Shown: piece by piece, positions 17,590 to 19,536 of the stretch
Layout of the letters: each line of letters begins with the position of its first letter
How positions within the stretch are numbered: position 1 is the first letter of the stretch
Assembly: GCF_946885725.1 (NCBI RefSeq)
Contig: NZ_CAMPGZ010000061.1
Location: 1-19,614 of the forward strand
DNA from: an uncultured Nocardioides sp.
GTDB taxonomy: Bacteria; Actinomycetota; Actinomycetes; Propionibacteriales; Nocardioidaceae
Length of the DNA: 19,614 bases
Reading direction: 5' to 3'
The notes under the pieces: model-generated
Database searches by the model: none
What the model was told of the DNA's origin: nothing
The model's input: only the letters and a program-made list of their open reading frames with translations
Position numbers and translations under genes: made by a program

Positions 17590-17615
17590 CCTGCGGTTTG
17601 GTCCCCAACCGCAGG
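17590..17615 (+). terminator. Terminator hairpin after the RHH-like gene
   Basis: CCTGCGGTT and AACCGCAGG form a perfect 9-bp stem with an 8-nt loop (TGGTCCCC), starting 7 bases after the stop codon. No U-run follows. Confidence 0.7.
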
Positions 17616-17685
17616 AATCCGACGGCGGATCCTGCAGTCTGTGACCAATCGATGGTGCGCCCGGCCGACCAAGCCGGCTCGTCGT

Positions 17686-17691
17686 TACGCT
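17686..17691 (+). promoter_or_regulatory. -10 element of the Fic-like gene, probably leaderless
   Basis: TACGCT, the same hexamer as at nth, ends 8 bases before the GTG at 17700. No Shine-Dalgarno sequence or good -35 is visible. Confidence 0.4.
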
Positions 17692-17699
17692 CGGCGACC

Positions 17700-18419
17700 G
17701 TGACCGACCCCCTGTCCCGGCTCGCCGGACTCGAAGGCGTGGCCTCCGCCATGGCCGCCACCCGCGACGGCATCGACGCGCTGCTGCGCGACCGAGGACT
17801 CCGCCGTACCTCTCCCGAGCAGACCGCAGAGTCGCTCCTCCGCGGCGCCCACGCCAGCGCCGTCCTCGAGGGATCGGAGGACAGCCTCGAGACGGCTCGC
17901 GAGGGGGCGGGCGACGAGGTGACCCAGGCCGCCGTCCGGGTCAGCACCGAGCTGCTCTCCCTCGTCCCGACGCTGAAGGCCGCGCCGCTCCAGGCATTCG
18001 CCCGGCTGCACACCCTCGCCGGCAAGGGTGTTGTCGACGACGCCGACCTCGGCCGCCCCCGCGACGCGGAGGCGGCGACCAGGCTGCGCGACCTCGCCGC
18101 GACGCTGTCCGCGCCCACCGAAGCGCCCGCGCTCGTCGTCGCCGCCGTCGCCCACGCCGACATCGCCACGGCCGCGCCGTTCTTGTCGCACAACGGCATC
18201 GTGGCCCGCGCCGTCGAGCGCCTGCTGCTCGTCGCGCGCGGCGTCGACCCGACGTCCGTCACCGTGCCGGAGGCGGGACATCTCGCGCTGCGGCGGGAGT
18301 ACGAGTCGAACCTGCGCGGCTACGCGAGCGGCGGGCAGGCCGGCGTACACGCGTGGCTGCTGTACGCCGCGGAGGCGTTCGCGAAGGGGGCGGAGTCCAG
18401 CCCGGTCGTCTCTCCATGA
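17700..18419 (+). CDS. Degenerate Fic-fold protein (Rv3662c/SCO3559-type, often annotated oxidoreductase)
   Basis: This 239-residue protein lies where Rv3662c and SCO3559 lie in their genomes. I see three Fic-like parts. The first is a helix with HASAVLEGSE at 51-60, like the SSxIEG motif of Fic N-terminal regions. The second, HADIATAAPFLSHNGIVAR (152-170), aligns with the Fic core HPFxDGNGRxxR. The third is a C-terminal helix with YESNLRGYASG and HAWLLYAA, like the segment after the Fic core. In the core the catalytic His becomes Ala159, the Asp/Glu becomes Ser163, the first Gly His164 and the first Arg Ile167, so AMP transfer is unlikely. No oxidoreductase motif is visible. The GTG at 17700 follows a TACGCT element. 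It converges with the HAD gene across a 301-bp gap. Confidence 0.75.
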   Translation: MTDPLSRLAGLEGVASAMAATRDGIDALLRDRGLRRTSPEQTAESLLRGAHASAVLEGSEDSLETAREGAGDEVTQAAVRVSTELLSLVPTLKAAPLQAFARLHTLAGKGVVDDADLGRPRDAEAATRLRDLAATLSAPTEAPALVVAAVAHADIATAAPFLSHNGIVARAVERLLLVARGVDPTSVTVPEAGHLALRREYESNLRGYASGGQAGVHAWLLYAAEAFAKGAESSPVVSP

Positions 18420-18439
18420 CGAGCGACATGACGAGCGAC
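18416..18439 (+). repeat. 12-bp tandem duplication at the end of the Fic-like gene
   Basis: ATGACGAGCGAC is present twice head to tail, spanning the stop codon of the Fic-like gene (TGA at 18417-18419). It is probably a replication-slippage duplication. Confidence 0.7.
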
Positions 18440-18450
18440 CTGACATGCGA

Positions 18451-18481
18451 GCGGCACCCGTGGGAGATCCCAGAGTGCCGC
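18451..18481. terminator. Terminator-like hairpin serving both flanking transcripts
   Basis: GCGGCAC (18451-18457) pairs with GTGCCGC (18475-18481). Inside, TGGG pairs with CCCA around an AGAT loop, with a small internal loop between the stems. It is placed to end the rightward Fic-like gene and the leftward candidate RNA. No U-run is present. Confidence 0.6.
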
Positions 18482-18614
18482 CGCTGACACATGAGACCGA
18501 TGGCTACCAAGCGTGCACCAATGTTGTCGTCCCGGGTGAACCCGTGGATCGACGCCCAATAGGAAGGGTAGGTCGCCGCGTGGGTACCTGGCTCATGTGC
18601 GGGTCTGGAGTTGT
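18451..18614 (-). ncRNA. Candidate Ms1/scr3559-like 6S-like small RNA
   Basis: The call rests on position, promoter and fold. The gap between the HAD-IB gene and the Rv3662c-like gene is where, as I recall, M. tuberculosis MTS2823 (Ms1) and S. coelicolor scr3559 are encoded, on the strand of the HAD gene, as here. A -35/-10 pair (18649-18621) predicts a start near 18614. The body closes by a perfect 8-bp stem between 18592-18599 and 18488-18495 (CACATGAG/CTCATGTG). An inner stem of GGTACC with GGTAGCC follows (18583-18588 with 18502-18508). A further stem-loop at 18526-18553 has a CGGG/CCCG stem. The hairpin at 18481-18451 ends it, giving about 164 nt. Ms1 binds core RNA polymerase; that role is inferred here. 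Ends are approximate. Confidence 0.6.
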
Positions 18615-18620
18615 GTCTCC

Positions 18621-18649
18621 TTTGTACGCCGGGGTCCGGACTGGGACAA
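18621..18649 (-). promoter_or_regulatory. Promoter of the candidate small RNA
   Basis: On the minus strand TTGTCC (18649-18644) and TACAAA (18626-18621) are separated by 17 bp, each with four of six consensus matches. It starts downstream of the HAD gene terminator and points leftward into the structured region. Confidence 0.5.
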
Positions 18650-18670
18650 CCCTTCACCCCGATGGTCTAG

Positions 18671-18697
18671 GTGCGGCTACGGGGGATTCCGCGGCAC
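18671..18697 (-). terminator. Possible terminator of the HAD phosphatase gene
   Basis: GTGCGGC (18671-18677) and GCGGCAC (18691-18697) pair with one mismatch around a 13-nt loop, 24 bases beyond the HAD stop codon. It would insulate the small RNA promoter from read-through. Confidence 0.4.
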
Positions 18698-18720
18698 TGG
18701 TCTAGGGGCGCCGACCGGCC

Positions 18721-19536
18721 TCAGCTCGGGCCGCGCGTGACCCTCCGCTTCGCCGCGACGTACACCGCGCTGCCGACCGCCGCGGCCGTGCCGAGCGCCA
18801 GTCCCGCGAGCACCGGCTTGCTCTGTGGAAGGCGCATCCGGCTGCGCAACGCCACCGGTCGCGTGAACACCAGCACCGGCCAACCCCGCTGCGTCGCCGT
18901 ACGTCGCAGCTCCTTGTCGGGGTTGACGGCGTAGGGGTGACCGACGACCTCGAGCATGTGTACGTCGGTGATCGAGTCGCTGTAGGCGTAGCTGCGCGAC
19001 AGGTCGTAACCCTTCTCGCGGGCGAGCTCCTTGATGGCGGTCGCCTTGTTCTCGCCGTACGCGTAGTAGTCGATCTTGCCGGTGTACTTGCCGTCGATGA
19101 TCTCCATGCGCGTCGCGATCACCCCGTCGGCACCGAGCATCTCGCCGATCGGCTCCACCACTTCGGCGCCCGACGCCGACACGATCACGACGTCGCGGCC
19201 AGCGAGCTGGTGCTCCTCCATCAACGACACCGCCTCGTCGAACACCAGCGGGTCGACGATCGTGTGCAGCGTCTCGGCGACGATGTCGCGCACCGTCTGC
19301 ACGTCCCAGCCGGCGCAGAGCTCCGACAGGAACTCGCGCATCTTCTCCATCTGGTCGTGGTCGGCGCCGCCGACGAGGTACACGAACTGCGCGTAAGCGC
19401 TGCGCAGCACCGCCCGGCGCGAGATCAGCCCACCCGCCTGAAACGACTTGCTGAAGGCGAGCGTGCTCGACTTGGCGATGATCGTCTTGTCGAGGTCGAA
19501 GAACGCGGCCGGGCGCCCGGTTGCCCGAGGACCCAT
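18721..19536 (-). CDS. HAD-IB family phosphatase with C-terminal membrane anchor (Rv3661/SCO3558-type)
   Basis: This 271-residue haloacid dehalogenase superfamily hydrolase is related to SerB and CicA. Motif I is FFDLDKTII with nucleophile Asp14 and acid Asp16. Motif II is VSAS, motif III is a Lys in ENKATAIKEL, and motif IV is YSDSITDVHML with two acidic metal ligands. A hydrophobic helix near the C-terminus (PVLAGLALGTAAAVGSAVYV) followed by KRR suggests a membrane anchor, which SerB lacks. The ATG at 19536 is preceded by GGAGG at good spacing. The substrate is unknown; phosphoserine or a phospholipid-type phosphate are both possible. In Streptomyces the orthologue is linked to morphological differentiation. 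Its gene borders the candidate small RNA on one side and 11-bp tandem repeats on the other. Confidence 0.9.
   Translation of the reverse strand: MGPRATGRPAAFFDLDKTIIAKSSTLAFSKSFQAGGLISRRAVLRSAYAQFVYLVGGADHDQMEKMREFLSELCAGWDVQTVRDIVAETLHTIVDPLVFDEAVSLMEEHQLAGRDVVIVSASGAEVVEPIGEMLGADGVIATRMEIIDGKYTGKIDYYAYGENKATAIKELAREKGYDLSRSYAYSDSITDVHMLEVVGHPYAVNPDKELRRTATQRGWPVLVFTRPVALRSRMRLPQSKPVLAGLALGTAAAVGSAVYVAAKRRVTRGPS

Follow-up and report, generated by a model that had tools for sequence, protein, structure and literature searches.

The window, i.e. the whole stretch of 19,614 nt that was analysed, raises the question of what occupies a gap of 301 nt (18420-18720) between the stops of two convergent genes, that of a HAD-IB family hydrolase and that of its convergent partner. 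A preliminary description of the locus had proposed that this gap is the counterpart, in this lineage, of the Ms1 and scr3559 RNAs. Reciprocal models, synteny and covariation support the proposal. We put the probability that the gap holds an Ms1-type RNA gene with the action of Ms1 at roughly 90%, with binding of RNA polymerase predicted by homology. The fold, its covariation, the conservation of the promoter, the homology and the synteny were all established by computation. The two genes and the predicted RNA gene between them are located as follows:

17598-18419, plus strand: convergent partner gene, the downstream neighbour of the RNA; a homologue is common in the class genomes that have an R1 match (see below).
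18445-18614, minus strand: predicted Ms1-type RNA gene of ~165-170 nt, recognized by matches of the models R1, R2 and RF02566 (see below); both ends are predicted, the start at ~18614 and the end at ~18450.
18721-19536, minus strand: HAD-IB family hydrolase gene, the upstream neighbour of the RNA (Pfam PF12710; NCBIfam TIGR01490, 208.7 bits).

Ms1 of M. smegmatis is an RNA of ~300 nt for which a short 5′ hairpin has been described. According to passages of three publications (PMC4191392, PMC11077062, PMC9130861), it binds core polymerase that carries no primary sigma factor, with a central bubble that is important for the binding; the RNA builds up in stationary phase and influences both outgrowth and the level of polymerase. 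One synteny trait of Ms1 is present in the window, i.e. the RNA lies 3′ of the HAD-IB hydrolase gene on the same strand and is convergent with the partner, which was equated with the oxidoreductase/Fic neighbour of Ms1 by position, Pfam and NCBIfam searches with the partner protein (17598-18419) having yielded 0 matches. The order and orientation of the neighbours had been likened to those of both RNA families before, and the gene layout as well as the neighbours found across the class (see below) agree with this. Among the matches listed, the closest relatives of the HAD protein belong to the Nocardioidaceae (Nocardioides, Marmoricola, Pimelobacter), with at most 83% identity in the best segment. 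In Table 4 of PMC9130861, Ms1 is predicted by synteny for genera that include Nocardioides, Marmoricola, Pimelobacter, Aeromicrobium and Kribbella. These candidates share the bacterial family and the intergenic place with the window element, and the parts of that paper considered here describe them as called from gene annotations and BLAST and give no consensus structure for them. Ms1 in Nocardioidaceae had thus already been predicted from synteny, and the shared sequence and folding are now demonstrated directly.

Loci were examined for the HAD gene in the best 80 of at least 560 confirmed relatives. Fifty-eight of the 80 loci hold ACCCACGC and TGGTA at the right spacing and were chosen for alignment on this basis, so that the conservation of these two strings in the resulting alignment (A1) is due to selection. 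A1 comprises the window and 57 loci, L059 having been left out for a long insert; nearly all sequences are from Nocardioidaceae or Propionibacteriales, and one is from Jiangella. The covariance model R1 was built from the 58 sequences of A1, window included. A second model, R2, was built from 64 class-wide sequences (A3) that were meant to exclude Nocardioidaceae and RF02566-type loci, the former by score and neighbour identity rather than by name. Because A3 and a further class-wide alignment, A2, were gathered and aligned with R1, and because L061 is part of both A1 and A3, R2 is not fully independent of R1.

The leftward promoter TTGTCC-N17-TACAAA of the preliminary description is present upstream of the predicted RNA:

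18644-18649, minus strand: −35 box (TTGTCC).
18621-18626, minus strand: −10 box (TACAAA), separated from the −35 box by a 17-nt spacer.

The pattern is conserved. In 55 of 59 motif-selected sequences (the window and 58 loci) TTG-N3, a spacer of 16-19 nt and TA[GC]A[ACG][ACG] are found just upstream of the element, compared with 66 of 11,600 random 97-nt stretches from those loci. The spacer between the TTG box and the −10 box is 17 nt in 52 of the 55 positive sequences and 18 nt in the other three, and a −10 box of the form TA[GC]A[AC][AC] occurs in 57 of the 59. Four sequences (L025, L028, L061 and L067) are devoid of the promoter pattern. The TACAAAGGA of the −10 region of the window is also found in L116, a locus recognized by RF02566, and in the scr3559-type locus L158. 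Generic scans for sigma-70 promoters and U-tail terminators between 17800 and 19200 retrieved nothing; the −10 box of the window ends in A, and the generic sigma-70 scan demands a T. By pattern, the element has a housekeeping-type promoter of its own, as is characteristic of Ms1.

The fold has a minimum free energy of −79.3 kcal/mol, versus −58.1 kcal/mol (sd 3.8) for shuffled sequences (z −5.6), and none of 200 shuffles was as low. In A1, 95.3% of the structure cells are paired, compared with 36-42% after sliding the partners by 1-3 columns. The covariation score is 0.248 versus 0.146 (sd 0.005) for shuffled alignments, none of 500 being as high, and double-sided changes occur at 18 of the 39 pairs. 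The stems are listed below with their double-sided changes, the pair counts in A2, as in A3, being favoured by the fitting of these alignments to the structure of R1:

18592-18600, minus strand: closing stem P1, 5′ arm; double-sided changes at four of eight pairs in A1 and at eight of eight in A2.
18487-18495, minus strand: closing stem P1, 3′ arm, with the same covariation.
18555-18568, minus strand: small hairpin CCC-N8-GGG; changes at three of three pairs in A2 and at none of the three in A1.
18526-18553, minus strand: apical hairpin; changes at six of seven pairs in A1 and at seven of seven in A2.
18451-18481, minus strand: terminator-like hairpin of 31 nt (GCGGCAC...GTGCCGC); changes at eight of 11 pairs in A1, with 98.4% of the cells paired.

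The structural elements named in the preliminary description can all be located among these. Its perfect 8-bp closing stem is formed by CACATGAG (18599-18592) and CTCATGTG (18495-18488, both minus strand) and covaries in A1 and A2. Compensatory changes in this stem, 18592-18599/18488-18495, are found within A1; one pair is G-C in 38 sequences, A-U in 15 and unpaired in five, and the adjacent pair is U-A in 40, C-G in nine and unpaired in seven. The small stem-loop has equivalents at 18568-18555 and 18553-18526, and the inner 6-bp stem, for which no coordinates had been given, fits both a core helix (see below) and the hairpin 18553-18526. The terminator-like hairpin is that at 18481-18451, which carries the compensatory changes listed above and has no U-run. 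The paired cells of A1 contain 164 G-U and 25 A-C combinations; this excess of G-U indicates that the transcribed strand is the leftward one. The first 14 nt of the predicted RNA are unpaired in the minimum free energy fold. Overall, the predicted and covarying structure conforms to a closed rod with an open middle and a 3′ hairpin, which is typical of Ms1.

Covariance searches in both directions connect the element with the two known RNAs. R1 matches the window at 18615-18442 with 152 bits, the window being part of its training set, and R2 reaches 125.2 bits with the window outside its training set. When the gap was compared with 4227 Rfam families, the best was RF02566 (Ms1), which aligns over its full length (model positions 1-304) with 18622-18439 on the same strand, its closing stem falling onto P1. 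The match has 20.8 bits (E 0.0017) and stays far below the gathering score of 162, which is a curation threshold and not a biological trait. A scan of the whole window gave no Rfam match in the gap up to E 5, because the E-value then covers 19.6 kb, while the gap alone gave RF02566.

In the reverse direction, R1 and R2 recover the loci at the RF02566 threshold and the locus with the scr3559 primers. At the gathering threshold, RF02566 is found in five of 19 loci scanned with Rfam (229-288 bits; of 20 loci fetched, L124 is outside this set). R1 matches all five, weakly and with overlap on the same strand, and R2 gives 46.4-64.0 bits. After the expected loci, R2 scores highest (13.9 bits) on L118, where it hits the opposite strand of the Ms1 region; elsewhere it does not exceed 12.8 bits. 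Sites for the two scr3559 RACE primers (PMC9130861) are present in L158, with 0 and 2 mismatches, one inside and one 21 nt before the R1 match, on the same strand; L158 places the scr3559 region in a relative and not in S. coelicolor itself. The two primers likewise have sites at the corresponding position of L125, L126, L127, L131 and L161, with 0-4 and 3-8 mismatches, whereas in 13 of the 19 loci tested, Kitasatospora loci included, they were not both found there. Three of the loci with primer sites (L125, L126 and L131; 0-6 mismatches) also miss the gathering score of RF02566. In the parts of PMC9130861 considered here, a structure-based homology search across Actinobacteria is reported as unsuccessful, Rfam candidates for Ms1 are confined to the vicinity of mycobacteria, and scr3559 is stated to have no BLAST-detectable similarity to M. 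smegmatis Ms1. A single model joining the mycobacterial, Streptomyces and Nocardioidaceae groups was not met in literature searches on neighbouring topics, which covered open-licence PubMed Central papers.

By its sequence and structure, the gap element qualifies as an Ms1 homologue that is predicted to be shorter (~165 nt) than the studied ones and to have no 5′ hairpin. It shares with Ms1 (RF02566)/MTS2823 the neighbours, the orientation, the TACAAAGGA of the −10 region, the closing stem, the ACCCACGCGG...GCACGCUUGGUA core and the terminal hairpin. In contrast, the mycobacterial RNA has ~304 nt and a 5′ hairpin like that of M. smegmatis Ms1, which is absent from the window. We take this hairpin to be a trait of the longer form and not a defining one, because R1 matches of similarly short length are numerous across the class. 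With scr3559/Str13 of Streptomyces coelicolor the element shares the kind of intergenic place and the strand, and the core and the −10 region are the same in L158; scr3559 is longer (~230 nt), and in L158 more sequence separates the promoter from the closing stem. Polymerase binding of Ms1 was demonstrated in mycobacteria, and passages of PMC9130861 report experiments showing scr3559/Str13 to be expressed and bound to the polymerase core, whereas for the window RNA binding is postulated by homology.

The element might instead be a true 6S RNA, which would bind the sigma-carrying holoenzyme and template short product RNAs. Its rod with an open middle and no 5′ hairpin resembles 6S RNA, its length is closer to that of 6S RNA (~180 nt) than to that of mycobacterial Ms1, and a 6S-like assignment has been argued for the same intergenic region of S. 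coelicolor in passages of PMC8539372. However, no Rfam 6S family matches the gap up to E 10, the list being headed by RF02566, and scr3559 is described in part of PMC11077062 as enriched far more strongly with RNAP than with HrdB. scr3559 is also reported to bind core and, in stationary phase, to associate to some extent with HrdB. We regard the 6S assignment as very improbable.

Descent from Ms1 with a changed job, e.g. that of a base-pairing regulator, would be compatible with the loss of most of two mycobacterial segments, which have 14 versus 57 and 29 versus 107 aligned positions in the window RNA and in RF02566, respectively. It is opposed by the core of the RNA, the strands of which are among the most conserved parts class-wide, the sequences compared comprising loci that were matched with the core-binding RNAs:

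18576-18588, minus strand: 5′ strand of the conserved core, GGTACCCACGCGG; G18587 and each base of A18585-C18578 recur in at least 95% of 71 other sequences.
18502-18518, minus strand: 3′ strand of the conserved core, GTGCACGCTTGGTAGCC; 11 of 17 positions reach this level (at least 95% of the 71), and the consensus fold pairs the strand with its 5′ counterpart.

These values refer to 71 sequences of A2, from which the window and five rows regarded as Nocardioidaceae had been removed, and are upper estimates of conservation, since the model selected the sequences. At 25 positions the base of the window is present in at least 95% of the 71; 20 of these lie in the two core strands, spanning G18587-C18578 and G18516-C18503, and five in the hairpin region. 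Because the core pairs hardly vary, covariation argues neither for nor against pairing there. A changed job appears to us to have very little chance of being correct, and an action like that of Ms1 is preferred.

The Ms1-type element was found in 76 of the 80 loci retained for the HAD gene, i.e. in the 57 of A1 and in 19 further ones by R1 at E ≤0.001; the R1 locus scan covered 34 sources, and 47 of the 57 A1 loci are counted on their inclusion in A1. It was not found in the fetched stretches of four loci (L016, L049, L064 and L080). The stretch of L064 ends two bases past the HAD stop, and for the other three R2 detects a copy elsewhere in the genome, beyond the stretch fetched. At the class level, R1 matches 83 of 197 genomes, some of the matches being training sequences, as the 197 include G002 and contigs matching those of L029, L033 and L065; R2 has a match in 107 of these 197 genomes. 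In 80 of the 83 genomes the R1 match is accompanied by one or both of the expected neighbours, and in 79 of the 83 the HAD gene precedes it on the same strand, the partner follows it on the opposite strand, or both. In one of the 79 (L134) the HAD gene lies downstream as well, and in L132 the partner is on the strand of the RNA and upstream of it. At the phylum level, R2 matches 19 of 246 genomes at E ≤0.01, of which 17 had already been drawn for the class, and the other two (E 0.001 and 0.0075) are about what is expected by chance in 246 genomes. R1 matches 14 of the 246, all of them already drawn for the class. Searches over 40 genomes were run with stricter filters, under which weak matches are lost.

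Within the fetched stretches of the 83 class genomes matched by R1, a partner homologue is present in 70 and a HAD homologue in 51, and short flanks may lower the latter count. In three loci (L162, L164 and L166) neither neighbour was found in the fetched stretch, despite Ms1-like R1 matches.

The least probable of the alternatives, which we regard as almost negligible, is that there is no separate RNA gene and the element is simply the 3′ tail of the HAD messenger or a terminator common to both convergent genes; it lies downstream of HAD on the same strand in 50 of 51 class genomes with a HAD homologue, and its hairpin, rich in compensatory changes, may well also end the partner transcript, but the conserved promoter and the concentration of near-invariant positions in the core argue against this reading, as do seven loci in which the RNA, flanked by the stops of HAD and partner, has the inverse orientation to the HAD gene, and five in which it lies ~530 to 2400 nt from the HAD stop. 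Promoter-like sequence, judged by eye, is still attached in all 12 of these loci; a promoter that travels with the RNA is indicative of a separate gene and not of a messenger tail. A coding gap was set aside by eye; the indels of A1 vary in length and have no common frame.

For the Ms1-type RNA, the following course of action can be proposed. The housekeeping-type promoter would start the RNA leftward near 18614, and the hairpin 18481-18451 would end it. The RNA is expected to fold into a closed rod composed of P1, the near-invariant two-strand core, which is unpaired in places, and two small hairpins at its far end. Homology with Ms1 and scr3559 suggests that the core and the open region would bind RNA polymerase core free of the primary sigma factor, most likely at growth stop, which may keep a reserve of the enzyme for regrowth. 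We infer the transcript ends, the growth-phase control, and the polymerase binding and its effect.

A wider proposal is that Ms1 goes back to a single ancestral RNA of this actinobacterial class, that the core, near-invariant and two-stranded, ACCCACGC facing ACGCuUGGUA, is the element that binds the polymerase core, that the short form is a natural minimal Ms1, and that lineages reported to be devoid of Ms1 (Catenulispora) keep it away from the HAD gene. In our judgement this could equally well prove right or wrong. Sequences related to the window bridge the three groups, which are tied together by their models and the class-wide matches. The short core is thereby pinpointed, and mutating it would test how sigma-free polymerase is held.

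For Catenulispora, no Ms1-sized gap is reported in the parts of PMC9130861 considered here. In Catenulispora pinistramenti, the genome of L080, R2 has an Ms1-like match at L170:4840-5030 (minus strand) with 52.9 bits (E 2.5e-7). TTGGCA-N17-TAGAAA lies upstream of it, a partner homologue (40.8% identity) is ~1.5 kb away, and the HAD gene would be at a distance of ~21 kb if this contig is that of L080. Several pairs of the model are broken in this match, and the single-sequence minimum free energy structure does not have the fold of the model, both of which speak against it.

A second RNA family was encountered in the vicinity of the HAD gene. 6C RNA (Rfam RF01066) is present in 12 of the 19 scanned loci (L114-L123, L130 and L131), in 11 of them upstream of the HAD gene, and in the remaining one (L122) no HAD match was found. 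The window itself stops 78 nt upstream of the HAD start, and its last 55 bases contain, as judged by eye, C-rich direct repeats on the minus strand.
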